Of a stretch of DNA of 42,799 nucleotides, positions 25,237 to 42,544 are shown piece by piece; within the stretch, counting starts at the first letter, position 1, and the number at the start of each line of letters is the position of its first letter. The DNA lies in the NCBI GenBank assembly GCA_021842405.1, contig JAKBZR010000020.1, forward strand, positions 1-42,799, written 5' to 3'. The notes beneath the pieces were generated by a model that had not been told where the DNA came from, did no database searches, and saw nothing but the letters and a program-made list of their open reading frames with translations. This DNA is from a bacterium (GTDB taxonomy: Bacteria > Armatimonadota > Chthonomonadetes > Chthonomonadales > JAMCWF01). A program made the position numbers and the translations under genes.

Positions 25237-25471
25237 AGTTCAGGTTTGCGGGAATGGTTTTCGTTCGACCCCACCCCAGCCCTCCCCGCAAGCGGGGAGG
25301 GAGTTTAGCGGCGGTGCTTTTATCTTGCCCCCCCCAGTCCCTCTTAATCCCCTCCCCCGTTTACGGGGGAGGGTTAGGGTGGGGGTGCATCCAATATGGT
25401 CGTAAATGATTCCCGCAGAACTGAACTGTAACTCCCGCAGAACTGAACTGTAACTCCCGCAAAACTGAACT
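25237..25471 (-). repeat. MITE-like element copy B with two extra tandem end units
   Basis: The element proper (25237-25427, 191 bp) starts AGTTCAGGTTTGCGGGAATG and ends CCCGCAGAACTGAACT. It is followed by two tandem 22-bp units (25428-25449 and 25450-25471) of the form GTAACTCCCGCARAACTGAACT that repeat its terminal sequence. The last base of the second unit is the first plus-strand base of the stop codon of the UroD-family gene that ends at 25471. A G-rich tract at 25365-25385 (GGGGG, GGG, GGG, GGGGG) fits the G-quadruplex pattern. Confidence 0.9.
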
Positions 25472-26550
25472 CATTCGGAAATGTTGTTGTAGCGGCCGTA
25501 GGTCCGGGCCATCTCCAACACTTTAGTGTAGGTATCGTAACTGGTTCCAGGCGGAACGGAATGGTCGCTATGGTACACGTAGCCGCCGCCGCGCTTGGCG
25601 AATTCGATCTTTTCCTTCAGCTCTTTCTCCAAACCGGGAAGATCGTTGGCTTGCAGCAGGCGCGCATCCACGTTGCCCATAAAGGAGAGCCACTCGCCGT
25701 AATCTCGTTTGGCCTGAAAGATGTCCATCCCAGCCTTTACCTCGAGCGGCTGGAGACAGTCAACGCCCGATTCAATTAATAATGGGATGATCTTGGTGTT
25801 GTCACCGCAACCATGGTAGATTGTTTTCCCCCCGATACGTTTTGCTAGACCGCATAGTCGCTTGTGATAGGGCATCACCAGCTCACGATACATCGCCGGT
25901 GAAAAGAAGCAGCCGCCGCGGTAGGAGATATCGCCCCAAAGCCAGACCCCATCCAGCTCGATACCGGCTCCCAACAGCGTCTCGAAGCCGCGCTCAATGA
26001 GCGAGGTTATCGTCTCATAAAGGTCGTGCAGCCACTCCGGATCGTCCAGCATCACTTCAAGTTGAAGCTCCGGCCCGACAATGCGCCAACCGGCTTCGAA
26101 GACCTCCAACACCGAGAAAGTTATGTAGCGATCTTCTCGCCGCCAACGACCCACCGCCGCCCGAATACCGTCCACATCCAGACGGCTGTCCTTCCATTCC
26201 ATCCGCTGCTTGGTCTCCCCATGCCACTTTTCTCGGCTCTTGCAGGCAAAATCCAAAAGCTCCGGGGTAGACTGCTTTTTCTTCCACTCTCGATTGAGCA
26301 TCCCAAACTCATCCCTAAAAATGCGATACTCTTCGGTGTCCTCCACGTTTTCACGGGGCAACATGGGGCTGATATCCATCCCGACTTTACGGATATCCAG
26401 ATCAAAATAGTCCTCTGGATCGGAATTCGCTGGCATTGAACCCGTTTTTTGCCATTCAGCCAACGGTTCCCACCAGAAGTGATCCATAATGCCGATGTGA
26501 TCCGCCTCTTGATGGTTAAATAGGGCGGTAATGCGTTCACGGGGGGTCAT
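25471..26550 (-). CDS. UroD/MtaA-superfamily corrinoid methyltransferase-like protein
   Basis: Protein of 359 residues with the UroD-type TIM barrel, in a cluster of corrinoid methyl-transfer genes. It starts MTPRERITALFNHQEADHIG, the conserved N-terminus of this group. A partial zinc motif remains: His246-x-Cys248 (YHGCGD), but the third ligand Cys of MtaA is absent. Instead it has HSDHSVPPGTSYDTY near 327, a signature shared with the UroD-like protein encoded at 33749-34870 (there HVDHRVPPDVTYENY). The ATG at 26550 is supported by AAGGAG 10 bases upstream. It is the last gene of the operon, directly followed by a dispersed repeat whose edge supplies part of the TGA. Heme biosynthesis is unlikely given the cluster. 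Confidence 0.85.
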   Translation of the reverse strand: MTPRERITALFNHQEADHIGIMDHFWWEPLAEWQKTGSMPANSDPEDYFDLDIRKVGMDISPMLPRENVEDTEEYRIFRDEFGMLNREWKKKQSTPELLDFACKSREKWHGETKQRMEWKDSRLDVDGIRAAVGRWRREDRYITFSVLEVFEAGWRIVGPELQLEVMLDDPEWLHDLYETITSLIERGFETLLGAGIELDGVWLWGDISYRGGCFFSPAMYRELVMPYHKRLCGLAKRIGGKTIYHGCGDNTKIIPLLIESGVDCLQPLEVKAGMDIFQAKRDYGEWLSFMGNVDARLLQANDLPGLEKELKEKIEFAKRGGGYVYHSDHSVPPGTSYDTYTKVLEMARTYGRYNNISE

Positions 26551-26584
26551 TAATCGGCTTCTCCTTCGGCCATCGCTGAAGATC

Positions 26585-28450
26585 TCAATCGCTGGGAAAC
26601 TCCATCGCATCAATAAAAGCGTCTTGAAAATCTTGGCGGCGGGCAAACTCCACGAAATCCGCCATTTCACTGATGCGATCGGCGCGCTCCATCACATCCC
26701 GGGAAAGCAGAGCATGGCGTGCTCCTTCTCCCGCTGCATTTCCTATAAATTCAACTCGATCCAACGGCGCTTTTGGAATGAGACCGATCCGCATCGCGCT
26801 CCTGGAATTGATGTGGCTGCCGAAGGCTCCGGCCAACATGATCCGCTCCAGATCATTCTCTTCGATGCCTCGCTCCTTAAGCAGAATCTTGCGGCCCGCT
26901 GCAATCGCGCCAACTGCCAACTGCACCTCCCGCACGTCTTGCTGTGTTATCAGTAGTGGCCGACCATTGTGAGTCTGTTTTGAGGATGCCAAAATGATTG
27001 AGTTGCCCCGGTCCCCCTCCACAATACGGCGTTTTAAGCAGTCCAGTGTATTTGGCGGTAGCTCATCCACCGAGGGAATATGGCCGGACGCATCAATCAA
27101 TCCGGCATCCAGCAACGTCGCGATGGCATCCACCAAGCCTGAACCGCAGATGCCTCTTATTACGCTGTCACCAACAACCCCCAAGCAAATATCACGATCC
27201 AGTACAACTGAATAGACGGCACCCCGTGCGGCGCGCATGCCTTGAGAAATTCGTGCTCCTTCAAATGCGGGTCCGGCCGCATTGCTACCGCAGATGATCC
27301 GATCACGGTTGCCCACCATCGTTTCGCCGTTGGTTCCGATATCCACCGCTAGCGAAAGCTCCTGCCTTCGATCCATATTAGTGGCCAGCATAACCGCGAC
27401 TGAATCTGCGCCAACGAAGCCGGCCACGCACGACAAAAACGTAGCTTGGCAGGTCGGTTGCAGCTCGATACCGAAAGTGCCCGGTGAAAACTGAACTGAG
27501 CTCCCCGCCACCGGTAAATAGGGAGCCATTCCCAATACTCGCGGCGCCCAGCCGAAGAACAGATGGCTCATCGCGGTGTTGCCGACCACGGTCAGCCGGT
27601 AGATTCGATGGGTATCCACGCCGGCCTCACGAGCCGTTTCCCAGATCAAGTGGTTGATGGTATCGCGGATGGCCGCCTTCAGTTCTCGAAGGCCGGTGGT
27701 CTGAGTTAAGGCAAATGTCAAGCGGCTGATTACATCCCCACCCCAGCGCCGCTGTGAATTGGCGCCCGCGGTTGCACCCACCACTTCCCCGTTTTTAAGA
27801 TTCACCAGATAGCAGGCGACGGTAGTGGTGCCGATATCAACCGCGACGCCGTACATCTGGTCGGTGGTGTCATCCGCCTCCGCACCCATTAGCCAGCCAT
27901 CAATGGAGACGATCGTCATCACCGAGCATTCGCGTTCCAACAGATCGGCAAACTGGCTAAGAAAGGACTGCTTTACCGGCCGCTTTCGCCAGGCGGCTGG
28001 AAGATGACCGCGGACGTAGCTCCAATGGCTGCGCATGTTGAGTCGTTCAGCCACTGTGGTGGTCAACCGACAAACCGGCACCGCCCTTTTTTCGATCCCG
28101 CATTTTATCGTGAAGCCGGATGGTAATGGCAGCGCGGCCGCTTTATCCGCATGGTCAACATCCTCCTCTTCGGGCAGGCTCACCCACACATCTTCGGTCA
28201 CTTTGTGACGGCAGGCAAGACGAATTCCCTGGTGAATTTCGGCTTCCGTCAGGATTTCCTGCTCCTCCGGCAGTGGTTCCGGAACTGCATTCAAGAACCG
28301 GATGCGGCATTTACCGCAGGTACCCTGTCCGCCGCACTCAGCCATAAAAAAGTAGTCGAACGGCTCCGCCGCCTTTAACAGGGTCTCCCCTACTCCGACA
28401 TGCACTGTCGTGCACTCCGGGAAAAAGGTAACTGTTTTTCTTTCAGACAT
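26585..28450 (-). CDS. RACo-like reductive activator of corrinoid proteins
   Basis: Protein of 621 residues of the ASKHA/RACo (DUF4445) family, which uses ATP to restore inactive Co(II) corrinoid to Co(I). The N-terminal [2Fe-2S] ferredoxin domain has all four ligands, Cys39, Cys45, Cys48 and Cys80 (CGGQGTCGKC and ACRH). A linker of about 100 residues follows, then the actin-like ATPase with AVDIGTTTVACYLVNL near 217 and AVDIGTNGETMVGN and MLAGAFGSHIN near the end. It lies between the corrinoid gene and the terminal UroD-like gene of the operon, the position expected for a maintenance factor of the methyltransferase. Electrons would come from a ferredoxin. Confidence 0.92.
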   Translation of the reverse strand: MSERKTVTFFPECTTVHVGVGETLLKAAEPFDYFFMAECGGQGTCGKCRIRFLNAVPEPLPEEQEILTEAEIHQGIRLACRHKVTEDVWVSLPEEEDVDHADKAAALPLPSGFTIKCGIEKRAVPVCRLTTTVAERLNMRSHWSYVRGHLPAAWRKRPVKQSFLSQFADLLERECSVMTIVSIDGWLMGAEADDTTDQMYGVAVDIGTTTVACYLVNLKNGEVVGATAGANSQRRWGGDVISRLTFALTQTTGLRELKAAIRDTINHLIWETAREAGVDTHRIYRLTVVGNTAMSHLFFGWAPRVLGMAPYLPVAGSSVQFSPGTFGIELQPTCQATFLSCVAGFVGADSVAVMLATNMDRRQELSLAVDIGTNGETMVGNRDRIICGSNAAGPAFEGARISQGMRAARGAVYSVVLDRDICLGVVGDSVIRGICGSGLVDAIATLLDAGLIDASGHIPSVDELPPNTLDCLKRRIVEGDRGNSIILASSKQTHNGRPLLITQQDVREVQLAVGAIAAGRKILLKERGIEENDLERIMLAGAFGSHINSRSAMRIGLIPKAPLDRVEFIGNAAGEGARHALLSRDVMERADRISEMADFVEFARRQDFQDAFIDAMEFPSD

Positions 28451-28556: not shown

Positions 28557-29195
28557 TCAGGAGCTAACGCCCAGCAGCTCCTTAGCCCGTAATACGGCCG
28601 ATGAAGCATCCGACGCAAAGGCATCGGCCCCGATTTGATCGGCAAAGCGCTGGGTGATGGGCGCACCCCCGATCATCACCTTCACGGTGCCGCGTATCCC
28701 CTCATCGTTCAACTTTTCAATCACCTTCTTCATGCCCGGCATGGTGGTGGTTAAAAGCGCCGACATCGCTATCAGCTCCGGCTTGAACTCCTTAACCGAT
28801 TGAACGAACTTGTCCGGTGAAACATCAACGCCCAGATCGAGCACGTCAAACCCGCCGCCCTGCAACATCATCCGCACCAGATTCTTACCGATGTCGTGCA
28901 GGTCCCCCTCCACCGTGCCGATCACCGCCTTGCCGACATACTTCATTCCGGAGCTGACCAGCAGGGGCTTCAACAGCTCCATCGAGGCCGACATGGCGCG
29001 CGCGGAGACGAGCACATTGGGAATGTAGTATTCATTGTTGCGGAACTTCTCGCCCACCACATCCATACCCGGCACGAGCCCCCGATAGATAACCTCCGGA
29101 GGCGGAGTTCCATCAGCCAACGCCTTTTCCGTCAGATCAATCGCTTTCTGGCGATTGCCCACAATGATGGCTTGGCTTAGATCCTCTAATGACAT
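28557..29195 (-). CDS. mtaC: MtaC-like corrinoid protein
   Basis: Corrinoid carrier of 212 residues. Residues 1-85 form the helical cap (PGMDVVGEKFRNNEYYIPNVLVSARAM). Residues 86-212 form the B12-binding Rossmann domain with D98-L-H100-D-I-G (DxHxxG), His100 being the cobalt-ligating His. SALLTTTM and GGAPIT complete the cobamide loops. Typical size and domain order of MtaC/MtbC/MttC. The ATG at 29195 (MSLEDLSQ) is preferred to a start at 29240. It could serve MtaB or one of the UroD-like methyltransferases. It lies after an MtaA-like gene and before RACo. Confidence 0.92.
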   Translation of the reverse strand: MSLEDLSQAIIVGNRQKAIDLTEKALADGTPPPEVIYRGLVPGMDVVGEKFRNNEYYIPNVLVSARAMSASMELLKPLLVSSGMKYVGKAVIGTVEGDLHDIGKNLVRMMLQGGGFDVLDLGVDVSPDKFVQSVKEFKPELIAMSALLTTTMPGMKKVIEKLNDEGIRGTVKVMIGGAPITQRFADQIGADAFASDASSAVLRAKELLGVSS

Positions 29196-29294
29196 GAGCT
29201 TTCTCTCTTTCTCGATTAAGACCGATTTAACCGGTCTCACCAGTGATTTTTAAGTGAGATGATTCTCTCAGGTTGGAAGTAAATTGGTTGATTA

Positions 29295-30455
29295 TTACTT
29301 TTTCTTCCGTAGGGTCGGCTTACCGTACTCCTCGGCTGCCTCGACCATTGCGTCTAGAAATGTCCATGAAGTGTGCGGGCAAACGTTATACCCATCCTGA
29401 AGCACTATCCCTCCGTATGGAGCCAGCACCTCCATAATGTGGTGGCACTCCTTCTTGATCGCATCGGTTGGACCGTTGTAGAGCAGCATGGGATCGAGGT
29501 TGCCCCGCATTACCACGTTGCCCGCCACCCGATCGCAGTAGGCTTCCGGAGGATTTACGTAGCCATACCCATCCAGTGACGTGATTTTCAGATCATCCAT
29601 CAGCACGTCCAACACGTGGATATTCTTGCCGCAAAGGTGCATCCCCCGCGCCCCCTGCCCGACCGGTGCAAAGGTATCGTATAACCGCTTGGTATGGGGA
29701 GCGATATGCTGCCGATACTGATTCTGGCTGAGCATTGGAACCGGATCATCGGAAAGTCCGAAGCCGCCGATCAACGGCCTACCAGAGATTTGCCGGTACT
29801 GTTTTTCGGTGTCAATCATCGCATCGGTAATTCGAGTCATGAACTGGTTCATCTCGTGGGGTGCCTCGATCAGCCAAGCCAGAAAATTTTCTCCGGCCAT
29901 ATCGAGCGCGCACATATAGGGTGAATCGCCGTTAACCCCCAAGCCGACCCCGATCTCAACCGGCTCTCCATTGAAGGTTACTTCAAACTCATCGCGTAGC
30001 TCCCGCATCACTTGATACCAATCCAAGCGCTTGCCCCATAGCCCCGCCATCGGCTCCGGCCGCCAAGCGACCGCCTCGTCAATTGTCCTGAGAAACGATT
30101 TTGCCCTCGGTGGATCGTTATCCGACCAGATGATTTCGCATCCGCACCCTGAGGCGTTGGTTACATTTTGAAAATCGGGCCAGACACCGACCCCCGGCCA
30201 GGCGACCCGATCGTCGCTAGTCCGTTCTAGGATGAGCTGGGCGTTGCGAAGCTGATGCTCCATCTGCACACGCGGGTTGGAAAAGTACTCGCTCCAGCTT
30301 ATGCCCCGCTCCGCCAGTGGAAATCGAGTGTCAAATCCGAATACCACCGGCACCCGGTCCACGTATTCGAACCGTTCCACCGCCTCCAATCGGGCCCGAT
30401 TCTGAAGCATTCGATCTTTCGGATAACGCAGGTCAATGCGCGTCTTCGCAGTCAT
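29295..30455 (-). CDS. MtaA-like UroD-superfamily methyltransferase with complete Zn motif
   Basis: Protein of 386 residues with a UroD-type barrel. The Zn site of MtaA/MtbA-type enzymes appears complete: His273-x-Cys275 in GMHLCGKN and Cys359 in DGYNVCPHT. Such enzymes move the methyl group between a corrinoid protein and a thiol or other acceptor. The sequence is distant from the fused MtaA-like protein upstream, so it is probably not a redundant copy but may have a different donor or acceptor. GGAGG lies only 2 bases from the ATG at 30455, so a start at a later codon (for example MLQNRARLEA at 30410) is possible. It lies between the fusion gene and mtaC. Confidence 0.84.
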   Translation of the reverse strand: MTAKTRIDLRYPKDRMLQNRARLEAVERFEYVDRVPVVFGFDTRFPLAERGISWSEYFSNPRVQMEHQLRNAQLILERTSDDRVAWPGVGVWPDFQNVTNASGCGCEIIWSDNDPPRAKSFLRTIDEAVAWRPEPMAGLWGKRLDWYQVMRELRDEFEVTFNGEPVEIGVGLGVNGDSPYMCALDMAGENFLAWLIEAPHEMNQFMTRITDAMIDTEKQYRQISGRPLIGGFGLSDDPVPMLSQNQYRQHIAPHTKRLYDTFAPVGQGARGMHLCGKNIHVLDVLMDDLKITSLDGYGYVNPPEAYCDRVAGNVVMRGNLDPMLLYNGPTDAIKKECHHIMEVLAPYGGIVLQDGYNVCPHTSWTFLDAMVEAAEEYGKPTLRKKK

Positions 30456-30510: not shown

Positions 30511-32331
30511 TCAATGGGCAAAAGCGCTCCTGATTTCACGCCAACTGGTACCCGTCGCGGCAGCGGCCGCGATGGCGGGAGCGCGGCTGGCTTTACCGCC
30601 GTGTATACCCAAATCGAAGGAGTTGCAGAACTCTTGCGTCACCGCCCCGCCGCCGCATGCGAACGGTACCTCGATACCGGCCTGCTTGAGCTTGGCGGCA
30701 ACCCGCGGAAAAGCGGACATGGTGGTGGTCATCAATGCGCTGCCGATCAGCAGCATGGGACTATACTGGCGTACCGCTTCCACCACCCGCTCATCGGGGA
30801 CATCAATTCCCAGATCAATGATCTCATATCCATTCGCTGAGAGCAAGGAGCGAACGATGTTTTTACCGATGGAATGGATATCGCCCTGTGCCACGAACAT
30901 CACCACCGTCCCCTTTCGCTGAAGCGCTTTGCCCATCTTCTTTTCACAGAGAACAACGCCCGCCTCCATCGCATCCGCCGCTCGAATTACTTGCGGCAAA
31001 AAGTAGCGTCCGCTGTCCCAGAGCTGGCTTACGTGGGTGATGCCGGCAACCAACCCCTCATCCACCACTTGCAACGGCGTGTGTTTTTCTAAGGCAACGG
31101 TAACCGCTAATTGGGTACGGGACTGATCCCCCACTGTGACCGCTCCGATAACTTCTTGCAGCTCAGCCGACTTCAATTCCGATGGAGCTTCCGCTTTTGC
31201 CGATGTCGGAGCCTCGCTCCCCGGCATAATCGGCCGGCGCGATAAGGCATTGTATCGGACAAACAGCGGGCTATCCGATTTCGTGATGCCGGCCGGCCGG
31301 CTCATAACAAATTGATCTCGACGCTCGACCGCTCTCGCCCCCTCAATCATCGCCCTAACGTTGGCGATGGGAGTTTCGGGCGCGATACCGCATCCCGGCG
31401 CCACCACCTCGAAGCCGGCTTCCACCGCGTCAGCCGCCTCTTGCCGTACCCGTTCGACCGGCCCGTAAAGCAGTGCGCCGGTGGGTGACAGCGGCCCGAT
31501 CAGCGCCGTCTTGCCACGGGTGGCATCACGAGCGACCCTGGAGTTGGTTCTTGCATCAATGCTGAGCGCTGATGCGCCGGTAACCGCCATATCGGCGATG
31601 ATTCCGGCCACATCGCCGCAGATATGCAATATTGATGGAACCGATATGCCGGCGAACAGCCGTTTCTCATACTCCAACACAATTTCCCGGTAGGCATCCG
31701 GTGAGATCATATCTGGGCTGGCAAGCATATCCTCAACGCAGATAGCATCGGCGCCCGCCTCGATTAATTTCTGCACCAGGATTCCGGCCGCTTCAACTGA
31801 CATCTCTAGTAAAGGCGCCAGTTGACTGGTGTCTTCCAACGTAGCCAACAGCACCTCGGAGGTCCCAACCAACGCGCCAGTCAGCGAAAAGGGCCCCACC
31901 ACCCCGCCGATCACCAGTGCATCCCGTCCCACATCCGCTTTTAATCGGACCAGCGCCTCAACCGTCCTATTAAGGGCCGGATGATTTGCAAATTCGGTCG
32001 GCAACTTCACCGCTGATCCAATTTTGTAAGGGTGACTGGAAACTTGCGGTAAAGCCGCTTTTCCCCCGTAATCAATGCGACAACCCAACGCCTCCGCTTC
32101 GGCCGTCTGCCCGAACGGCACCCGTGCCATATCGAGACCCAACAGGTGTACCGCTCCGGCCGCCAATTTAGCCATTGCAGCGGCATCCAGGTGGGCTTCG
32201 GGAAAAGCAACACCCAGTTTAACCATCTGCTCGACGGTGGCGGTCTGGTTCACCGCTCCGACGCATACTGTATCGGTCTTTCCTTGAAAGAGCGCAGCCA
32301 GCGCTCGATTTCGACTATTCATTACCGCCAT
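30511..32331 (-). CDS. MtaA-like methyltransferase fused to a corrinoid-binding domain
   Basis: Two-enzyme fusion of 606 residues. Residues 1-340 closely follow methylcobamide:CoM methyltransferase MtaA/MtbA, with Zn ligands His236, Cys238 (LHICGD) and Cys314 (APGCGIAPETP). A linker rich in Ala, Ser and Pro (about 365-390) leads to an MtaC-type domain: helical cap 391-465 and Rossmann part 475-600 with D484-I-H486-S-I-G (DxHxxG). The methyl carrier and the methyl acceptor enzyme are thus in one chain. Fused methyltransferase/corrinoid proteins are known from methyl-sulfide metabolism in Methanosarcina (Mts proteins), with the corrinoid part at the other end as I recall it. It begins 38 bases after mtaB. 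In a bacterium the acceptor is more likely tetrahydrofolate than CoM. Confidence 0.92.
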   Translation of the reverse strand: MAVMNSRNRALAALFQGKTDTVCVGAVNQTATVEQMVKLGVAFPEAHLDAAAMAKLAAGAVHLLGLDMARVPFGQTAEAEALGCRIDYGGKAALPQVSSHPYKIGSAVKLPTEFANHPALNRTVEALVRLKADVGRDALVIGGVVGPFSLTGALVGTSEVLLATLEDTSQLAPLLEMSVEAAGILVQKLIEAGADAICVEDMLASPDMISPDAYREIVLEYEKRLFAGISVPSILHICGDVAGIIADMAVTGASALSIDARTNSRVARDATRGKTALIGPLSPTGALLYGPVERVRQEAADAVEAGFEVVAPGCGIAPETPIANVRAMIEGARAVERRDQFVMSRPAGITKSDSPLFVRYNALSRRPIMPGSEAPTSAKAEAPSELKSAELQEVIGAVTVGDQSRTQLAVTVALEKHTPLQVVDEGLVAGITHVSQLWDSGRYFLPQVIRAADAMEAGVVLCEKKMGKALQRKGTVVMFVAQGDIHSIGKNIVRSLLSANGYEIIDLGIDVPDERVVEAVRQYSPMLLIGSALMTTTMSAFPRVAAKLKQAGIEVPFACGGGAVTQEFCNSFDLGIHGGKASRAPAIAAAAATGTSWREIRSAFAH

Positions 32332-32369: not shown

Positions 32370-33752
32370 TTAATTGATACCGTAGTTTTTCGCACGAAAC
32401 TCGGGAACCGATTGCGAATAAATTTGAACGCACTCCTGGATGAACCGCTCCTCATCATCCGGCAGCTCATCCAAAGCCTTGCGACAGCTCTCAAGCGCCT
32501 CGCGCTCATTTTCTGATAGGGGAAGCTCACCGGAGCGATCGCTGCTTGCAATAATCTCGGCCGCTCGCTGCATGGCCCGCACGGTCCGATTGTAATACCC
32601 CTTTTCCTTGACGATTACACCGGCGATATCCATCGCCACGTCGGGAGAAAGCACCAGCGCTTGCGGGTCCCGATTCCGATCGGAGGTGATGAGCACATCC
32701 CGCATCGTGTCCGCACAGCCCATCTGGAGGGAAGCATTCATTTGGGCACAATCGTAAGCCAGCATCTCGGCGAAAACCTGTGGGGTGGTTCCTCCAAACA
32801 TTTCACCGTACTCCACCGCTTCGTTGCTCCATAAGTCACAAACCGCCGCGCTTAAATTGCCCATCAGGTCGGAATGGGCGCAGGCTGAGGTTTTGCCCTC
32901 CATCGAGATCGGTTTGCCGGTGATCGCTTTCAGAATGACTCCCTCATAGCCGCAATCCTTATCCGGTCCGGTTGCTCCCGCTTCAAAGGCAACCAACGAT
33001 CGCACCGCCCCGGCTGGCCGAACCAGCGCGGCGAACGTGTGAGGAAGTTGGGTTTCCATCAAACCGCCTGCCATGAACATGGCGGTATTGGAGTGAGCGC
33101 AGTCCGTGTCGCCGCCCGGTAATACACCGTACTCTTTCGCAATGGAGACGATGTCGGACCAAAGGTGTGCCATGTCCAAACTACCCAGGACACCGACCGC
33201 GAAAACCACTCCCCGAATATCCTGGCGCGTGACCGCATAATTGAAAACCTCTTTTCCACCGATCGATTCGATACTGAGGATGTCGGCGCCGGCCTCGGCG
33301 GATGCTTTCATTCCGTTCAAGATTTTCTTGTATTCGGGCGAATCCCAAAGGCCATTCTCCGGTTTGCGGATATCGGCGATCGTTGCCCTCAATGCCCCCT
33401 TGAGTCCGTAACGATCGTAATACTCCTTCAAGAGCCATTTCGTGAGGTGGGCGATCTCTCTGCCCCACTCCACCTGATCCGTCAACTGAAAGACATGCTC
33501 CAGCTCCATCACGATCGCCGGCGCTCCGATCCCCACAATCCGATCGAGCGCGTCCCGCGTGATGCGCTGGTACTCCTCCACCAGCGTGTTTAAATCTTTT
33601 TCGCGGCCCGGTCGCGGGGCATATTTTAATTCAGGAATAACGGCGCCGGCGCCGATCTCGACGTCGAAACCGGCCTTAACCGGGTGAAGCGAGCGGCCGA
33701 ACACCATATCCTGCCATCTCGAGTATTCGCAACTTTCAAATGGTTTTATCAT
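32370..33752 (-). CDS. mtaB: methanol:corrinoid methyltransferase MtaB
   Basis: Methanol-specific methyltransferase of 460 residues, the same length as the Methanosarcina barkeri enzyme. Shared landmarks are DMVFGRSLHPVKAGFDVEIG, GAGAVIPELKYAPRP, SIGGKEVFNYAVTRQDI and CGYEGVILKAITGKPISMEGK. The three Zn ligands are present at Glu162, Cys218 (GGDTDCAHS) and Cys267 (GPDKDCGYE), each two positions before Glu164, Cys220 and Cys269 of the M. barkeri protein. It therefore should activate methanol and methylate a corrinoid protein. The start overlaps the previous stop as ATGA. Methanol methyltransferases also occur in acetogenic bacteria, so bacterial MtaB alone is not new. Confidence 0.95.
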   Translation of the reverse strand: MIKPFESCEYSRWQDMVFGRSLHPVKAGFDVEIGAGAVIPELKYAPRPGREKDLNTLVEEYQRITRDALDRIVGIGAPAIVMELEHVFQLTDQVEWGREIAHLTKWLLKEYYDRYGLKGALRATIADIRKPENGLWDSPEYKKILNGMKASAEAGADILSIESIGGKEVFNYAVTRQDIRGVVFAVGVLGSLDMAHLWSDIVSIAKEYGVLPGGDTDCAHSNTAMFMAGGLMETQLPHTFAALVRPAGAVRSLVAFEAGATGPDKDCGYEGVILKAITGKPISMEGKTSACAHSDLMGNLSAAVCDLWSNEAVEYGEMFGGTTPQVFAEMLAYDCAQMNASLQMGCADTMRDVLITSDRNRDPQALVLSPDVAMDIAGVIVKEKGYYNRTVRAMQRAAEIIASSDRSGELPLSENEREALESCRKALDELPDDEERFIQECVQIYSQSVPEFRAKNYGIN

Positions 33753-34870
33753 GAATTTATCGCCTCTGAGTGAGCTGGCGGCCGCGGTATGCCGAACAAA
33801 TCGCGCTTGTAATCGAGATAGTACAGGTAATTTTCATACGTCACATCCGGCGGAACCCGATGATCCACATGCGGGATGTACCCGCCCTGATCGGCCAGTG
33901 GCTTCAGGTAGCTTAGCTCCTTTCGAATCTCTGCTTTGCCGGCAATGAGTGCGACTTTATCCACGCCACCAAGCAGAATAACATCCTTGCCGAATTTGTC
34001 CCGCAAACGGTAGGGATCGCTGTGAGAGGCGCGCTCGATGGGGAACATTCCTCGCACACCGGCCTGAATCCAAAGCGGCGCCAACTGATTGATGTCGCCG
34101 TCGCAATCCACGTAGACGATATCCACACCGTGTTGCTTTAAAAAGTCGGTGATCCGCTTGTATCGGGGAACCAGTATTCGCTCAAAGGAGGCCGGCGAGA
34201 TAAGCGGACCACCGTTAAACGCCATATCCTCCCAGAAATCGGCGAAGTCATACTGAACTCCAACCACCACCTTTTCCAAAACTCTCATAATAAGATTGCA
34301 AAGATGTTCAACCATATCTTCCATCAGATCCGGCTCTTCAACCGTGCAGATGGCGGCCCCTTCCAACCCCATCCAGTCTCGAATTCGGCCCCACAGGCTT
34401 CCCACGTGAATGCCCAGCGGATAGGTTCGATTCTCCCACTGCTTGGTGATCTCCGTCCAGTTGGAAGGAAAACGGCCCGGCGTCTCCGGATCGAGACGCC
34501 TTTTAAACTCCTCCCAGGAAGCGCGATCCTTAAGCGTATGGTCAATGAAATGAGGGATCGAGGTGAGTTGGCTGCCGTATTTAAAGATCATGCATTTGAC
34601 GCCGTTGCCGTCTATGATGATTTGATGGCGGTCGTCCTCCTCCACCACTTTGGTCTCAAAACCGGGGGCTAGGTCAAAATTTACCGGAGCCCATCGCCGC
34701 TCCGCAAACCCGAAAAAGATATCTGCCTCCGGGTTGTTTCGAACCGTTTTCGGCAAGCCCTGATCGTGCCAGGCCACGATGGTTTCATCCCAGTAACCGA
34801 ACTCTTCATCAGGAATGCGGTCTACCGGCTGGAAATGAAGACAGTTTACCCATCTTTCTCGATGGTTCAT
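33749..34870 (-). CDS. UroD-superfamily protein lacking the MtaA zinc ligands
   Basis: Protein of 373 residues with a UroD-type barrel (MNHRERWVNCLHFQPVDRIP at the start, DWMGLEGAAICTVEEPDLMEDM in the middle). Where MtaA has His-x-Cys-Gly, it reads Y253-V-D-C256-D-G, so the His is lost. It carries HVDHRVPPDVTYENYLYYLDYKRDL at the C-terminus, the same signature as the UroD-like protein at 25471-26550. It may be a methyltransferase with another mechanism or a different substrate. AAGGAG lies before the ATG. Its stop overlaps the mtaB start as ATGA, so it is cotranslated with the methanol enzyme. A dispersed repeat lies directly upstream. Confidence 0.85.
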   Translation of the reverse strand: MNHRERWVNCLHFQPVDRIPDEEFGYWDETIVAWHDQGLPKTVRNNPEADIFFGFAERRWAPVNFDLAPGFETKVVEEDDRHQIIIDGNGVKCMIFKYGSQLTSIPHFIDHTLKDRASWEEFKRRLDPETPGRFPSNWTEITKQWENRTYPLGIHVGSLWGRIRDWMGLEGAAICTVEEPDLMEDMVEHLCNLIMRVLEKVVVGVQYDFADFWEDMAFNGGPLISPASFERILVPRYKRITDFLKQHGVDIVYVDCDGDINQLAPLWIQAGVRGMFPIERASHSDPYRLRDKFGKDVILLGGVDKVALIAGKAEIRKELSYLKPLADQGGYIPHVDHRVPPDVTYENYLYYLDYKRDLFGIPRPPAHSEAINS

Positions 34871-35097: not shown

Positions 35098-35904
35098 TTA
35101 GTGGTCGAATCCGTTTTCAATGATTTGGGGCCGGGGATCGCTCAGTTCATTGACCGGTTCGATCACCCTTTCATCATAGGTTGGCCGGATGGTCATACCG
35201 GGCTGTACGATGATAAAATCATCGCTTTCCCAATCACCATCAATCCAACTTCTCAGCATACAGAGGCTGGCCGGTATCTCTTCATAAGCCCAGCCGTTTT
35301 GCTGGCAAGTCTTCTGCACTTGCCGATCCATTTTCAGGTGATCGAGGAAGTCGTGGCGGATAAAAGAGCCTCGGGCGTACTTTTGACGCCACTGCATGCC
35401 AAGCTCCATCAAATAACGCGCGTTCTCTTCACCATATCGCTCAATCAAGCTATCAAGGTCTTCTCCAAGCAGCTCGCCGACCTCGTTCTGTTGGATATCA
35501 CGCCCAACCCGCCGCGGACCTTCCATCCAGCCGGTGCTATAGTAGTAACTTCCAGGCCGTTTCATAAAGTGATCCAGATACCGTTCGCGTGACCCGATGA
35601 GAAAGGTGAGGCAGTCATGGGCGCGCGGAATAACCAGCTTGGTGTCACGTGCGGTTACCCCATCCAGTAGCCGATTGCAGAGACCGTATCCCAATAGAAT
35701 AGCGTCGAATTGACTGGTAGGGGTGGCATCAATCCGTTGCTGAATTTCAGCCGCGCCGTTCATCGGTTTCTCGTGATGCGCCTGGGAGAGAAACTCAAGG
35801 CAGATCGTGTTGCGGGAGGTGGCAACCACCGCGCAAATCTCACGGGTTGCCACCTCGCACGCGATGACCTTTAACATTAAGGGAGGGGGTTCATCATTTA
35901 TCAT
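35098..35904 (-). CDS. DUF1638 family protein
   Basis: Protein of 268 residues of the DUF1638 family, recognised by LMLKVIACEVATREI at the start, ILLGYGLCNRLL, and the conserved IPRAHDCLTFLIGSRERYLDHF. The biochemical role is not established. Members often sit beside corrinoid methyltransferase or RACo genes, and this one does too. Three conserved Cys (in ACEV, GLCNR and HDCLTF) could bind a metal or cofactor. That is inference. A GGAAG precedes the ATG, which lies 27 bases after the alpha/beta oxidoreductase stop. Confidence 0.85.
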   Translation of the reverse strand: MINDEPPPLMLKVIACEVATREICAVVATSRNTICLEFLSQAHHEKPMNGAAEIQQRIDATPTSQFDAILLGYGLCNRLLDGVTARDTKLVIPRAHDCLTFLIGSRERYLDHFMKRPGSYYYSTGWMEGPRRVGRDIQQNEVGELLGEDLDSLIERYGEENARYLMELGMQWRQKYARGSFIRHDFLDHLKMDRQVQKTCQQNGWAYEEIPASLCMLRSWIDGDWESDDFIIVQPGMTIRPTYDERVIEPVNELSDPRPQIIENGFDH

Positions 35905-35931: not shown

Positions 35932-38193
35932 TCAGAGCACCGGCGATTCGTGCATCGCCTTGAGCCTTGTCCAGCGCCGATCCACCTCTTGCTGCAGATC
36001 GGCCACCACATCGGCATATTCCGGCTTCAACAGATGGGCGGAGGCCACACCCATCAGAGGAACCATATCAGTAACGGGGCGCTTTTTGCCGAGCGCTTCC
36101 GGATTATACGTCAAGGTGGTGATGCCATGTACGATTTTCAACAGGGGGAACATACAGGTCTCAACCATCGTGCGGGCGACAATGGGGCCGTCCTCCCCTT
36201 TTGTACCCCAATTTAAGGGACAGGTAGAAAATGCCTTTAGGAAGGCAAAGCCGCCATTTCTAACCGTCTCTTGCGCTTCCCGTGCCTTCATCACCGCATC
36301 CTCATAGTGGCTTTCGCAAACCGTTGCGATGTAAGGGGCATGAGTCCCCCTTAAAATCTCCACCATATCCTTGGAATGAAACGTTTTACCGACCTGTGCT
36401 TTGCCGACCCGGCTGGTCGCCGTCATCATACCCTTAAATCCGGTATAGCAAAGCTGGGCGCCGGTATTGGCGTAGATGTTGTTGTCGTATTCCAGGTAGA
36501 TGAACGGGTGGTTTCGTATCGCGGCGCCGATGAGCTGATCCATCCCGATGTCGCCCGAACCATCACCGCCTACCACGAGAAGCGTCATATCTCGATCCAC
36601 ACGACCGTGCTTTTTCAACCATTCGTAATAGGCGACGATGCCGCTTGCCGTAGAAGAGCCATTGTGAAACAGGTTGTGGGCGTATGGAACTTTAAATGAG
36701 GTGAAGGGAAAGCCGGAACTCGTAATTTCAGCGCAACCGGTATTGTAGACTAAGGCGACTTGTCCATCGATTCCCTTTAAGACCATTTCAAGGTTCAAAA
36801 ATGCGCCGCAACCGGGGCAGGCGGAGGTCTTGTCAATCCGATTCGGCATCTCGGACGCAATCGTCTTCATTACGCTGACATTCATTCGGGCGCCGAGCTT
36901 TTCATTCAGTGAGATGTCGGTCTTTTCCACAATCGGTGCCGGTGCTTTGGGCGGGGTCAGTATCTGCTGCTCCGGATCGCCTTCCCAGTGTCCATAATAG
37001 TCAAAGTCAGCGACCGCTTCACCCTGGTCGGCGCTGAGAGCCTGGTCGTAAAGCTCAACCGCATCATGAAAGCTGAAGTTCAGCCCACCCAGGCCGTATA
37101 CGCGGTTGAGGATTCTGGCTGGATTATGTCTGGCTTGCAACAGCGCGCCAATCTCGTTGGCCAGGTAGGAGCGATAGGCGCCATATTCATCGGCACGATC
37201 GGCCACCATAAGAGTTCGAACCCCACTGAGCGCATCCGCCAACTCATCGGCCGGAAACGGCCGCAGCAGGCTCATCGAAACGAGACCGACCGATCTGCCG
37301 CTGGCCTTGATCCGATCCACCGCATCCTCACTGGCATGGGCGGCCGAGTTTAAAATCAGCATCGCAACCGGTGGATGATCCTCCATCCCCACCGTGCCGA
37401 CCATCGAATAGCGCCGACCGGAGATTTTAGCGTACTCCTGGAAAATGACGGGCAGCAAGCGGTAAGCGTCCTGCATCGCCAAATGAAGCTGATATTTATT
37501 ATTGATTAAATCATCATTCATATAGGCGCCGAAAGTCTTCGGATGATCGAAGTCTATATACAGGTCGCGAGGCGGTTTCGGGCCGATGAAATCCCGCACG
37601 ATACGGTTGTCCGCAAAGATTTGAAACCGTCGAGCGCCATGGCTGGTATGAAACCCATCGTAAGCGACCACACAGGGCAACTGAACCTGTTCGGCCCACT
37701 TCAGCGCAACGATATTCATGTCATAGACTTCTTGGACGCTTTTTGCCAGTAAAATGAGCCATCCCATGCCAAGAATGGACATCAGGTCGGAGTGATCGTT
37801 CTTAATGTTCAGCGGGGCCGAGACGGTTCGGGTCGCCAGATTTAGGACCATCGGAATGCGAAGACCGCTGATGGCCGGAAGCTCCTCCATTTTCAAGAGC
37901 AGCCCCTGGGCGGAAGTAGCATCCACAACCCGAGCTCCCGCCATCGCTCCACCGGCACAAATTGAAATGGCGGCCAATTCACTGGTGGCCGGCACGAAGA
38001 CCATATCCACCTCGCCGCGTGCAACGCGGGCCGATATCTCTTCGCCTACATCGCTGGAAGGGGTGATCGGATAAAAGCCCTCCAGCTCATAACCGATCGC
38101 CGCGATGGCCTCGGCCGCGGCCAGATTTCCACCTCCAATGCATACCTTTTGCTCGATCGCACGATCTATCACCGAATATGCTTTCTCACTCAT
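35932..38193 (-). CDS. 2-oxoacid:ferredoxin oxidoreductase, alpha and beta subunits fused
   Basis: Protein of 753 residues. Residues 1-395 match the alpha (pyrimidine-binding) subunit with YPITPSSDVGEEI near 41 and FVPATSELAAISICAGG near 66. Residues about 440-750 match the beta subunit: Cys459 and Cys462 (ACPGCG), Cys487 (NTGCAEI) and Cys658 for a [4Fe-4S] cluster, and the TPP motif GGDGSGDIG at 542-550 followed by a DNNIYANTG. Pyruvate, ketoisovalerate and indolepyruvate type enzymes share this plan, and the substrate cannot be told. The ATG follows the gamma/delta gene by 33 bases. Reduced ferredoxin from this enzyme could feed RACo. Confidence 0.9.
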   Translation of the reverse strand: MSEKAYSVIDRAIEQKVCIGGGNLAAAEAIAAIGYELEGFYPITPSSDVGEEISARVARGEVDMVFVPATSELAAISICAGGAMAGARVVDATSAQGLLLKMEELPAISGLRIPMVLNLATRTVSAPLNIKNDHSDLMSILGMGWLILLAKSVQEVYDMNIVALKWAEQVQLPCVVAYDGFHTSHGARRFQIFADNRIVRDFIGPKPPRDLYIDFDHPKTFGAYMNDDLINNKYQLHLAMQDAYRLLPVIFQEYAKISGRRYSMVGTVGMEDHPPVAMLILNSAAHASEDAVDRIKASGRSVGLVSMSLLRPFPADELADALSGVRTLMVADRADEYGAYRSYLANEIGALLQARHNPARILNRVYGLGGLNFSFHDAVELYDQALSADQGEAVADFDYYGHWEGDPEQQILTPPKAPAPIVEKTDISLNEKLGARMNVSVMKTIASEMPNRIDKTSACPGCGAFLNLEMVLKGIDGQVALVYNTGCAEITSSGFPFTSFKVPYAHNLFHNGSSTASGIVAYYEWLKKHGRVDRDMTLLVVGGDGSGDIGMDQLIGAAIRNHPFIYLEYDNNIYANTGAQLCYTGFKGMMTATSRVGKAQVGKTFHSKDMVEILRGTHAPYIATVCESHYEDAVMKAREAQETVRNGGFAFLKAFSTCPLNWGTKGEDGPIVARTMVETCMFPLLKIVHGITTLTYNPEALGKKRPVTDMVPLMGVASAHLLKPEYADVVADLQQEVDRRWTRLKAMHESPVL

Positions 38194-38226
38194 TGAAATC
38201 CTCCAAAACGAAAAGCGCCCTTACTT

Positions 38227-39231
38227 TCAGGACGCCTTTCGTATGTTCTTGTATGATGCCGCTTCGTTTGCAAGGACGACCTCGGCATAATCGGCTTCCA
38301 ACACCTTGGTGAGCGCCTTGCCGTTTTTTGTATCCGGGCAGACCATCACGCATCGGTTGCAACCCTTGCAATAATCGTAGTCAATTCCCATCATCTTACC
38401 GTTCGCAAAGACGATGGAGCCCGGATCGCTGCATGCGTAGTAACATTTCACGCAATGGATGCATGCATCCGGGTTGAATAGCGGCATCTGACCGGTGCGC
38501 GAGGCTCCATGTGTTTTGCCATAGGAGCTGTTCAAGGCGTTGATCAACACGCCGCCCGGTCGCTGTGTCAAGTAACCAATCACTCCACCTTGTGGCTTAG
38601 AGTAAGGCAGATGCTTATACTTGCCATCATAGGGAAAATCTTGAAATTGAGCGGAGGTGATCCCTTCGTAAGCCTTCAAGTTTGCTTCCGACACCTTCGG
38701 CCAGGTGGCAGACAGCATTTCACGGGCCGCCTGATCGGGAAAGCCGAGCACTTGTATCAACAACCCGAACACCGGGATGTTGATCCGCGACCTCGCCTCC
38801 GCTGCGATACGGGTCGCGTCCAAGCAGATGATCTTGCCGTCAGCGAGTTGTAAACGATCGCGAATTGCGGCCGGGTTCTCGGTCGTATTGACGATCACGG
38901 TGGCCTTGGGCTGAAGTCCCACATTCAGGCGCATCGGCTCGATGAGCTGCTCTCGCATAATCGCCAGAATGTGGGGAGTGGAAAGTGTTCCGCTCGTGCG
39001 GACCGGCCTGCCTAACTTGCAGAGCCGAATTGAAACATCGGTCGGGGTTCCTTTTTTTTCTGAACCGTACTGCGCATCAAATGCGCCATCCAAATCGAGC
39101 TTGTCAACCGCGATTTTGAAGAGGAGCTTTCCGATTGTATTGGCGCCGTCACCACCCAATGCGACCAGCTTGACATTGCAATACCCCAGCTCGTCCTCAT
39201 AACAGAGATCGAATTCTTCTTCGGTTTTCAT
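38227..39231 (-). CDS. 2-oxoacid:ferredoxin oxidoreductase, gamma and delta subunits fused
   Basis: Protein of 334 residues. Residues 1-190 form the gamma domain (VALGGDGANTIGKLLFKIAV, then YGSEKKGTPTDVSIRL). Residues about 245-315 hold two [4Fe-4S] ferredoxin motifs with all eight Cys: CIHCVKCYYAC and CKGCNRCVMVC. Together with the next gene it completes the four-subunit enzyme in two chains. It is the first gene of the run. Upstream are a palindromic operator-like site and a possible promoter at 39340-39380. The Shine-Dalgarno is weak (AGGT about 10 bases before the ATG). Confidence 0.9.
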   Translation of the reverse strand: MKTEEEFDLCYEDELGYCNVKLVALGGDGANTIGKLLFKIAVDKLDLDGAFDAQYGSEKKGTPTDVSIRLCKLGRPVRTSGTLSTPHILAIMREQLIEPMRLNVGLQPKATVIVNTTENPAAIRDRLQLADGKIICLDATRIAAEARSRINIPVFGLLIQVLGFPDQAAREMLSATWPKVSEANLKAYEGITSAQFQDFPYDGKYKHLPYSKPQGGVIGYLTQRPGGVLINALNSSYGKTHGASRTGQMPLFNPDACIHCVKCYYACSDPGSIVFANGKMMGIDYDYCKGCNRCVMVCPDTKNGKALTKVLEADYAEVVLANEAASYKNIRKAS

Positions 39232-39421: not shown

Positions 39422-42400
39422 TCATCTCCAGCGCACGCTAAGCCGATCACCCTCTTTTAAGATTATCGGTTCGCTGAACCGAAGCGCAGTCCACTCTCCA
39501 GCCTTGGCAGCGGTCACCGGAACCAGTTTACCGTTCAGCAGCACCCGATACCTTACACCGGTATGCCCAACGCTAGCCCTCACCGAACGCAGTGGAAGCT
39601 GGCCATCCATGATTTCAATCGTCTGGGCGGTGGTGCTCTGCATAAGGACGCCCCAACATACCGGCGTCGTAAATACCGAGCGGTGAGCGGTTGGCGCCAC
39701 ACGCGGTGAGAAGGCAATCCAGCCCTCCGGCGCGCTGTATTGAAACCCCTGAATGGCCATCAATACCGTCCAGACGCTCATCGGCCGAAAGTAGTGGTTG
39801 CCGCACTCGAAATGGTTCCAAGGCCTGCCCATCTTTAAATAGCGGTCTTGGACCTCGCGGACAACTTGCAGCCCCTGCTCCACCATACCGTTATATATCA
39901 TATTGGAGGCCAGCGCGTACTCCACCCCGCTCCAAACGGCCGACCATTGGCCGCCGCGCGGCAGCGCTTCAGCCGGATTGGGCCACCATCCGTTGATGAT
40001 GCTGCCGTTCTGACGATTGCGGGTGTAGATGGTGTTCAGAGTTGAAAGCAGTCGCTCTTTGGGATAAGGGCCGCCCAAGCCGGGATGCAGCGAGGCATAC
40101 CAAACCGCATCGGTCGCCGCCGCTAAGCTGGCATGATCCCTTTTACCTGTCTTGGAATCGTAGTAAAGGTCGTAATATTGGCCGTTCCACAGCTCTTTTT
40201 GAAAATTCGGCTGCGCCTTATGGTACCTTTCGCTAAAGATATCCGCTTGTGCGGTCTGACCCAGCGCCTTCCCCATCTCAACCGCCGCTCGCAGCGCGGT
40301 CAAATAAAGCGATGAGACATAAACCGAAGTCCCGTACATAGGCCAGCCATCATAGGTTTGATCGGCGCCGGTGTCATCGGGAAGGCCATCCCCATCGGTG
40401 TCGCGACGGCTCATATCATTCAGCGCCGCCACCACGTGGGGCCAGTGGAATTGCAAGAATTGGCGATCGCCGATCCATTGCCAATCCCGATAGGCCATCA
40501 AAACGTACTGCGACATCATATCAATCCGATAGTAGCCATCCGGATGATCAAACGTGGCCGGGAAAAAGTGGGGTATGTCGCCGTTGGACGCCTGATGGTC
40601 AACGGTTATATGAATTTCACTGCGCTCCAGCTCGGGAAAGAGGACGGTGATCATATTGGAGCCGTAGTAGCTCACATCCGTCGTTTGCAGGCCGCAGCAG
40701 CCCTCGCCCTCCCATACACCAAACTTCCCGTCCTTATCCCACCAGGAATCCTTGGACATTGTGGTCAGTTGGGCATTGATCGCGTCCAGTATTTTCCGCT
40801 CGACGCTGGCCGAGTAAAATTCGCGGCGAAACCGATCGGTTTTTCGGTGCAGATCGGGCAAGCGCGCAATGACGTAGTCGGCGACTCCATCCGCATCCTT
40901 AAACCAGTTCGAATACATATGCCCGATCTGATTCCGATCGGCATCGAGGTGATTGGGAAAGTGCCAGGTTAGAACAAAAGTAACTTTACCGCTTTTGTTC
41001 GGCTCCAGATGCAAGCGCTGGGTAACGGCCGCATTGCGCGCAGCGCTGCCCGAGTCCAGCGTGCCCTCCGGCTCCAGCTTGCCGTCTTGGTTGAAATCGG
41101 CCCAGAACTCCTCGAAATCGTTCCACGCCACGCGATATGCCCCGCGCCCCAATCCGGTTAAGGTCATCGTGCCGAACGATTGCCAGGTAGCCGGCATGTG
41201 ATTGGGCTGGAGGTAGCTGGAACGAGATACATAAGCGACCATCGTTCGATAAAAGCTGTCCACCCGGTCGAGCGTCGGCGGCCACCCGCCCCACACCGAT
41301 GAGGCGTAAACCAGCGTTCGTCCTTTTCCATAGTGGCCAGCAACCACCAGCGGCTGCCCGGCGAATCCGCTTGCGATGACGACGCCGTCCGGTTTCACAC
41401 CGGCGATCAGGTTATAGCCGTTAATGGAGGGTAGGGTCAGGTTACCGAATACCTCTTGAGCCAGCTCGCCCTTTACCTTTGAGATGCTGGTCGCCTGGTT
41501 AACCGCGTCGAACCGGTTTAGGAAATTAACGGGCAGAATGCTTTCCAAAATCGAGCCGTTCATGTGTCCCCAGCGATCGCTCGAATAGCCGTAAAAGGCA
41601 TCCCAGCCGCCGGAGTAGATCAGCCCCATTCCGGCATTGACCGCCTCTTGCAGAATCTTCATATTGGCGTCGCCCAGCGTGTCACGCGCGTGAGTGATTT
41701 CGCCGACCCAAGCGCAATCGAACCGACGCGCCAGCTCCTCGCCGTTATCGGCCGGCAGCCTAATCCCATCGGGCCCCTCGCCGGTCGCCCAGGTCACCTT
41801 GAGCCCGCTTACTCCGTCGAAGGCGCTGGCAAAGCCGCCATGCACCCGATCGGAGACGAGCAGCAAGCGTATCGGCTTGGACATCGAGGGCGGCTTTCCC
41901 CCGCTTAATGCTTCCATTGCGACCCGAATCCCTTTAGACGTAGCGCCTTTGCGGTTGCGAGTGCCCCGAAAATTCAGGTCATAGCCGGCGCCATTTCGCT
42001 GGCTGGCCAATAACGAAACCTCCACTGCTGTCGGGTTCGGATTATGAACAATAAAAGTAAAAATGGCGCAGGGCAGCGCGGAATCCTTCTCATCGAGTGG
42101 GATGAAGGGCGTCCAGGCATCCAAATGAATATTCACCGGCAGGTTGGGATCGGCATAATCGAGCATTGCGAAGGGGTGCTCGCCGACATACCCGATCTCA
42201 CTCACACCCTGGGCCAATCCTCTTGAATTCAATTGCAATAGCCGGGAGATGGTCTCCGCACCGGCATTGACCCACACGGCGAACAGTGAATCCTCAAGCC
42301 GCAGCTTTGAAGCCCAATCATTGAAGATTTGCCACTCATAAAAGGTTCCGTCGGCGCGCAGCTCCACCGTGCCGGCGCCGATCCCACCCAGCGGGATGCC

Positions 42401-42544
42401 GGAGTTCATGGGAGGATTGGCCCCAATGACGGTTTGATCCCCCTGAGCCGGCTTATCGCTCGTCATCGAGTAGCCGGCCGCGCCGATGGCTGCGGTAACG
42501 GCAATGGTCTTCACGAATTCACGTCGCGAAATTTCACCTGTCAA
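39422..42544 (-). CDS. GH116-family glycosidase with an inserted GATase1-like domain
   Basis: Exported protein of 1040 residues with a Tat-like signal (SRREF and a hydrophobic run). The N-terminal beta domain starts at about 40 (NSGIPLGGIGAGTVELRADG), the GH116 signature. Residues about 222-435 are a foreign block resembling class I glutamine amidotransferase-like proteins (RLLLVSDRVHGGFASAF, then GMGLIYSGGWDAF and ESILPVNF). The beta domain resumes near 450, followed by the (alpha/alpha)6 catalytic domain from about 575. By alignment with known GH116 enzymes, E612 in VWEGEG fits the nucleophile and D732 in QTYDGWPMYG fits the acid/base. The TTG start has GGAGG 7 bases upstream. Beta-glucosidase or beta-xylosidase activity is likely. 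Confidence 0.88.
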   Translation of the reverse strand: MTGEISRREFVKTIAVTAAIGAAGYSMTSDKPAQGDQTVIGANPPMNSGIPLGGIGAGTVELRADGTFYEWQIFNDWASKLRLEDSLFAVWVNAGAETISRLLQLNSRGLAQGVSEIGYVGEHPFAMLDYADPNLPVNIHLDAWTPFIPLDEKDSALPCAIFTFIVHNPNPTAVEVSLLASQRNGAGYDLNFRGTRNRKGATSKGIRVAMEALSGGKPPSMSKPIRLLLVSDRVHGGFASAFDGVSGLKVTWATGEGPDGIRLPADNGEELARRFDCAWVGEITHARDTLGDANMKILQEAVNAGMGLIYSGGWDAFYGYSSDRWGHMNGSILESILPVNFLNRFDAVNQATSISKVKGELAQEVFGNLTLPSINGYNLIAGVKPDGVVIASGFAGQPLVVAGHYGKGRTLVYASSVWGGWPPTLDRVDSFYRTMVAYVSRSSYLQPNHMPATWQSFGTMTLTGLGRGAYRVAWNDFEEFWADFNQDGKLEPEGTLDSGSAARNAAVTQRLHLEPNKSGKVTFVLTWHFPNHLDADRNQIGHMYSNWFKDADGVADYVIARLPDLHRKTDRFRREFYSASVERKILDAINAQLTTMSKDSWWDKDGKFGVWEGEGCCGLQTTDVSYYGSNMITVLFPELERSEIHITVDHQASNGDIPHFFPATFDHPDGYYRIDMMSQYVLMAYRDWQWIGDRQFLQFHWPHVVAALNDMSRRDTDGDGLPDDTGADQTYDGWPMYGTSVYVSSLYLTALRAAVEMGKALGQTAQADIFSERYHKAQPNFQKELWNGQYYDLYYDSKTGKRDHASLAAATDAVWYASLHPGLGGPYPKERLLSTLNTIYTRNRQNGSIINGWWPNPAEALPRGGQWSAVWSGVEYALASNMIYNGMVEQGLQVVREVQDRYLKMGRPWNHFECGNHYFRPMSVWTVLMAIQGFQYSAPEGWIAFSPRVAPTAHRSVFTTPVCWGVLMQSTTAQTIEIMDGQLPLRSVRASVGHTGVRYRVLLNGKLVPVTAAKAGEWTALRFSEPIILKEGDRLSVRWR

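Follow-up and report, generated by a model that had tools for sequence, protein, structure and literature searches.

Methyl transfer from methanol through a corrinoid carrier requires that the carrier, MtaC, dock on MtaB and on MtaA in turn. At the locus described here, on a 42,799-nt stretch of Armatimonadota DNA (the window; contig JAKBZR010000020.1, from a draft genome of 174 contigs), the carrier is tied to only one of these partners in a single polypeptide, MtaAC. This raises the questions of whether the joined chain is real, how it arose, and what accepts the methanol methyl group in bacteria that are seemingly neither methanogenic nor acetogenic. The chain, encoded on the minus strand, is organized as follows:

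30511..32331, minus strand: mtaAC, a single ORF of 606 aa comprising an MtaA-type methyltransferase and an MtaC-type corrinoid protein
31318..32331, minus strand: MtaA-type (URO-D fold) domain, residues 1-338, by profile and structure match
31624-31626, 31618-31620 and 31390-31392, minus strand: His236, Cys238 and Cys314, the predicted Zn site of the MtaA domain
31168..31317, minus strand: tether, residues 339-388, delimited by alignment with stand-alone MtaC, pLDDT and dN/dS
31249-31263, minus strand: FVRYN, residues 357-361, the MtaC N-terminal motif, by alignment with stand-alone MtaC
30514..31167, minus strand: MtaC-type corrinoid domain, residues 389-606, by profile and structure match
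30874-30876, minus strand: His486, within the predicted lower axial ligand motif D484-x-His486-x-x-Gly489 of the MtaC domain

The mtaAC frame starts with ATG and is uninterrupted. Pfam assigns URO-D to residues 6-333 (E 1.5e-63), and B12-binding_2 (PF02607) and B12-binding (PF02310) to residues 392-459 and 475-567 of the C-terminal part. Among NCBIfam models, the N-terminal part exceeds the curated cut-offs of PRK06252 (277 bits against 244) and TIGR01463 MtaA/CmuA (257 against 235); its 297 bits fall short of the 400 set for the MtaA_Meth equivalog, so that it is MtaA-like by sequence, a score that does not imply specificity for coenzyme M (CoM). The C-terminal part scores best with MtaC2_Meth and MtaC_Meth (237 of 450 and 224 of 420 bits), under both equivalog cut-offs. 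Among solved structures, M. mazei MtaA (4ay7) comes closest for residues 6-330 and M. barkeri MtaC (2i2x_B) for residues 387-604; the structural match of the MtaA domain to 4ay8 and 4ay7 gives a TMt of 0.92-0.93, and the corrinoid domain matches 2i2x_B. The first-pass annotation, which had described an MtaA-like methyltransferase and a C-terminal corrinoid protein in one polypeptide, is borne out by the ORF, the Pfam domains and these structures. The zinc site and the DxHxxG histidine that it named are found at exactly those residues: H236, C238 and C314 align with the zinc site of stand-alone MtaA, and together with H486 they are unchanged in an alignment of four fused orthologs. Each domain thus belongs to the type found in methanol systems and has a complete predicted catalytic site.

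Such a chain could also be produced by a sequencing or assembly error, or by the chance joining of two genes, and the first of these had been named at the outset as the observation that would undo the annotation. Beyond the draft state of the window genome, no support for an artefact was found. Full-length fused orthologs are present in four further Armatimonadota species (L007, L008, L009 and L030): a congener (G001, 88% identity) and three members of one other, distant family (G043, G056 and G216, 46-48%). The same full-length frame is therefore seen in five species, in independent assemblies and in two distant families. Purifying selection is coherent across the fused frame (dN/dS between the window and the congener: MtaA domain 0.10, tether 0.67, MtaC domain 0.07), which implies that both halves are kept as working proteins and that the tether evolves under relaxed selection in comparison with the strong purifying selection on the two domains. 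Assembly error is ruled out by this recurrence together with the selection, the probability left to any artefact is vanishingly small, and we take the fusion as genuine and as conserved among the five species. A near-full-length open-frame match was obtained in only 5 of the 291 genomes of the phylum searched, and some 30 genomes belonging to the same order gave no fused mtaAC. The five fused-gene genomes are about 97% complete in four cases and 64% complete in the congener. Opposite-order fusions were considered for three long URO-D ORFs of other Armatimonadota species (L118, L088 and L117) and rejected, as these ORFs have no corrinoid domain.

The two halves had been described as joined by an Ala/Ser/Pro linker. 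A stretch of this composition exists at about residues 366-388, but it is not the whole junction, and it corresponds to a segment that is likewise variable in stand-alone MtaC. Bacterial stand-alone MtaC begins with a short segment closing in F-V-R-Y-D, which appears in the fusion as F357-V-R-Y-N361 (F-x-x-Y in the distant-family fusions), while the C-terminus of stand-alone MtaA can be aligned up to about residue 338 of MtaAC. These two boundaries place the newly made joint within some 15 residues, at about 340-356. AlphaFold prediction of the whole chain (pLDDT 88.2, pTM 0.83), a check that had been suggested earlier, gives two well-folded domains connected by a single disordered tether at residues 342-381 (pLDDT <50).

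Phylogenetic analysis places the origin of both halves among bacterial methanol systems. In the MtaA tree, the fused domains fall within a clade of bacterial MtaA proteins that accompany mtaB and mtaC, the two fused lineages being left as an unresolved fork when MtaA is used alone; with MtaC alone, the fused sequences come together at a support of 85 and group with bacterial MtaC. A concatenated MtaA, MtaC and MtaB tree of ten loci, which is unrooted and cannot prove direction, places the five fused loci on one side of a branch with support of 100/99.8 and fits a single fusion event. The nearest relatives of both domains are found in mtaB-mtaC-RACo-mtaA clusters (L034, L036 and L038), in a locus of variant order (L035) and in L040. 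The last of these contains the closest unfused pair found, separate adjacent mtaA and mtaC genes in that order and about 80 nt apart; loss of the stop codon in such an arrangement would yield the fusion. The best explanation for the fused state of all five species is a single joining of an mtaA-mtaC pair already in that order. Descent of MtaAC from CmuA was rejected, since both domain trees place CmuA on separate, very long branches.

The genes that surround mtaAC in the window lie on the same strand and follow one another in the order given, with mtaAC located between mtaB and the URO-D-family gene at 29295..30455:

38227..39231, minus strand: 2-oxoacid:ferredoxin oxidoreductase gamma subunit and 2[4Fe-4S] ferredoxin in one chain, by profile
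35932..38193, minus strand: 2-oxoacid:ferredoxin oxidoreductase alpha and beta subunits in one chain, by profile
35098..35904, minus strand: DUF1638 protein, by Pfam
33749..34870, minus strand: divergent URO-D-family protein, with a 4-base overlap with mtaB, by profile
32370..33752, minus strand: mtaB, methanol:corrinoid methyltransferase, 460 aa, by profile, matching 2i2x_A throughout
29295..30455, minus strand: divergent URO-D-family methyltransferase, directly downstream of mtaAC, by profile
28557..29240, minus strand: second, stand-alone corrinoid protein, MtgC/MtbC-like, 227 aa, by profile, apart from MtaC in the tree
26585..28450, minus strand: RACo/RamA-type reductive activase for corrinoid proteins, by profile
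25471..26670, minus strand: divergent URO-D-family protein, by profile

The mtaB stop codon lies 38 nt ahead of the mtaAC start, and mtaB is directly upstream of mtaAC at all five loci. Counted along the 2i2x_A alignment, the window MtaB keeps Glu164, Cys220 and Cys269 of M. barkeri MtaB, which we take to be its zinc ligands. The congener has the same gene order for the portion of the run present. The distant-family unit consists, in all three species, of mtaB and mtaAC only, with no other methyltransferase, corrinoid-protein or activase panel match in the stretches of 19-20 kb searched; the neighbours among those scanned (tRNA modification, NadA, PurH, ABC transport, TPR) have housekeeping or transport roles. 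The two-gene pair is thus the conserved, recurring core, and the second corrinoid protein and three extra URO-D proteins of the window operon indicate that the division of labour there may be more complex. When these URO-D proteins were inspected by eye, the product of 29295-30455 showed both the His-x-Cys (as MHLCG) and the late Cys (as NVCPH), that of 25471-26670 HGC only, and that of 33749-34870 neither a complete His-x-Cys nor a late Cys, which suggests non-sulfur substrates or other roles. The ferredoxin oxidoreductase genes (35932-39231), fused as two chains, adjoin the methyltransferase genes and are kept in the congener; their product may supply electrons to the RACo activase. The DUF1638 gene (35098-35904) is likewise kept in the congener, and a DUF1638-like ORF is also found beside mtaA in L041. 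Elsewhere in the window, positions 39422-42544 encode a large glycoside hydrolase of the GH116 family (beta-glucosidase 2 type), whose start, with SRREFVK, looks twin-arginine-like.

The conserved sites and the pairing with mtaB have led us to favour, with some reserve, a methanol system of two polypeptides, MtaB and MtaAC in place of MtaB, MtaC and MtaA, in which the methyl group passes to a thiol other than CoM made by the cell, and not to H4folate. From what is known of the family, MtaB would move the methanol methyl onto the Co(I) cobalamin of the MtaAC C-terminal domain, the flexible tether would let this domain swing over to its N-terminal partner in the same chain, and a zinc-bound thiolate there would accept the methyl and regenerate Co(I), with the RACo-type activase rescuing any Co(II). 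The earlier statement that fusion would force the transfer to be intramolecular goes too far. The tether raises the local concentration of the partners, and transfer between chains could still take place; MtaBC is oligomeric, and a complex with more than one MtaB and MtaAC would allow exchange with a neighbouring chain. The narrower proposal of a two-protein methanol:thiol methyltransferase with in-chain handover to a cellular thiol, for example homocysteine or another S-acceptor, is offered tentatively, as a possibility about which we are more doubtful than hopeful. Counting against the favoured reading, MetH could take the methyl from MtaAC and feed H4folate.

Direct transfer from the MtaA domain to H4folate, the acceptor suggested by the first-pass annotation as THF, would agree with bacterial methanol use, which normally ends at this cofactor (PMC13391211, PMC5770442). 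Methylene-H4F reductase is also encoded in all but one of the five genomes with the fusion. A protein of 29.7 kDa would suit the pterin-binding fold better than the URO-D fold of 335 aa, and this is the mass of the MtaA characterised in the methanol system of Moorella (PMC13391211). The MtaA domain of the fusion has no pterin-binding signature in Pfam and has the His-Cys-Cys zinc site typical of S-substrates. Within the superfamily, such sites go with S or Se substrates and carboxylate replacements with oxygen substrates (PMC10418091). The window genome (G000) has pterin-binding domains only in MetH and one protein of the FolP type; in the distant family they occur in a FolP-type protein and in a 576-607-aa protein with S-methyltransferase and pterin domains. 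Among the fused-gene genomes, all searched as drafts, no MtrH/AcsE/CmuB-type H4folate methylase was found outside MetH, nor the acetyl-CoA synthase beta subunit CdhC, nor formyl-H4F ligase, and a THF route through such a methylase was rejected, as was acetogenesis. Direct methylation of H4folate is, on this evidence, quite unlikely.

In the distant family, the 576-607-aa frame adjoins methylene-H4F reductase (L130 in G056, L131 in G216 and L132 in G043), and methionine synthase looks split, in a version that resembles the split MetH also known in Thermotoga. MetE is absent from the genomes searched. Methanol as a replacement methyl source for a missing methionine synthase was also discarded, since MetH or split MetH is present and no such need is evident.

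Coenzyme M is suggested as the acceptor by the N-terminal part, which exceeds the cut-off of a methylcobalamin:CoM methyltransferase model (PRK06252) and has M. mazei MtaA as its closest match in the PDB; the cofactor would come from neighbouring methanogens or by an unknown route. Against this, neither ComA nor sulfopyruvate decarboxylase is present over cut-off in any of the five genomes. The absence of ComA alone is not decisive, because the Methanosarcina control also lacks it, and far-below-cut-off matches to sulfopyruvate decarboxylase occur also in all 14 controls. CoM synthesis was rejected on these grounds, and CoM as the acceptor is very unlikely. The pterin-domain inventory and the missing marker genes together imply that the acceptor is probably neither H4folate (directly) nor home-made CoM, a conclusion drawn from absences in draft genomes, and most likely another thiol.

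The direction of transfer could also be reversed, with the MtaA domain acting as a second donor-side enzyme that demethylates a methyl-S or methyl-Se compound onto the same corrinoid domain; the carrier would then be fed by methanol, through MtaB, and by a thioether, and the methyl would exit through, for example, MetH. CmuA, which has the same architecture, works on the donor side and passes its methyl to CmuB (PMC3621897), demethylation of methyl-Se/S compounds has been proposed for relatives with a His-Cys-Cys site (PMC10418091), and MetH is present in the window genome and split MetH in the three distant-family genomes. However, the MtaA domain groups with the MtaA of mtaB-mtaC-RACo-mtaA clusters and not with CmuA, whose branch measures 2.7 changes per column, and the stand-alone relatives accompany mtaB and mtaC, where the acceptor-side enzyme would otherwise be missing. 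We therefore regard a donor-side role as unlikely. If the favoured two-polypeptide system is correct, methanol:thiol transfer takes place in bacteria that show neither CoM synthesis nor the acetyl-CoA-synthase (Wood-Ljungdahl) pathway.

The halves of MtaAC resemble MtaA and MtaC of the Methanosarcina methanol:CoM system (4ay7, 2i2x) in fold, catalytic residues and neighbouring mtaB, but they form one polypeptide rather than two and belong to bacteria whose genomes lack a CoM synthesis marker. Bacterial mtaB-mtaC-RACo-mtaA clusters differ in having separate genes, with the RACo gene nearby, and the mtaA-mtaC pair of L040 has the A-then-C order of mtaAC in unfused form. CmuA of Methylorubrum extorquens CM4 is, like MtaAC, a protein of about 600 aa with an N-terminal URO-D and a C-terminal corrinoid domain. 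The two share 26-28% identity, and CmuA (L026:7746-9599, L027:2548-4392) has NTQDIG in place of DxHxxG and hence, unlike MtaAC, lacks the lower axial histidine. No cmuB/cmuC-type neighbours of mtaAC were found, and apart from MetH and FolP the window genome yielded no gene of the MtrH/CmuB type. The long, separate CmuA branches and the missing histidine argue that CmuA is an independent fusion.

In the Mts fusions of Methanosarcina, cited by the first-pass annotation as a precedent of opposite order, the corrinoid domain is N-terminal and the methyltransferase C-terminal, the reverse of MtaAC. MtsD, MtsF and MtsH of Methanosarcina acetivorans do combine a corrinoid protein with an MtaA-family methyltransferase (PMC10762971), in a methanogen and for methyl-sulfide donors; CmuA, with the same domain order as MtaAC, is the nearer precedent (PMC3621897). 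Mothe_c14370 of Moorella thermoacetica is also listed, without study, as "mtaA and mtaC fused together" (PMC13391211); it is solitary, apart from the methanol mtaA1B1C1 cluster, and its likeness to MtaAC is one of description. The Mlp proteins of type 1 mlp clusters are MtaA-like with a His-Cys-Cys zinc site, occur mostly in non-methanogens and have no clustered H4folate methylase; they differ from MtaAC in their separate corrinoid protein and in a core cluster described without mtaB (PMC10418091). A same-order URO-D/B12 fusion of 579 aa in Vescimonas fastidiosa (L144:3677-5416) keeps DMHDIG and has lost the His-Cys-Cys zinc site; it adjoins a DUF2284 gene.

Fusions of corrinoid protein and methyltransferase, including one of the same layout in CmuA, are already known, and MtaAC is a variant of them; the papers searched contained no description of an mtaB-linked MtaAC fusion. 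What is new is a zinc-intact, acceptor-side MtaA fused to MtaC, with mtaB alongside, in two families and in draft genomes without the usual methyl acceptor pathways. In contrast to systems in which the carrier diffuses, MetH and CmuA shuttle a tethered corrinoid, and MtaAC makes the choice between these two modes testable by cutting at the tether.
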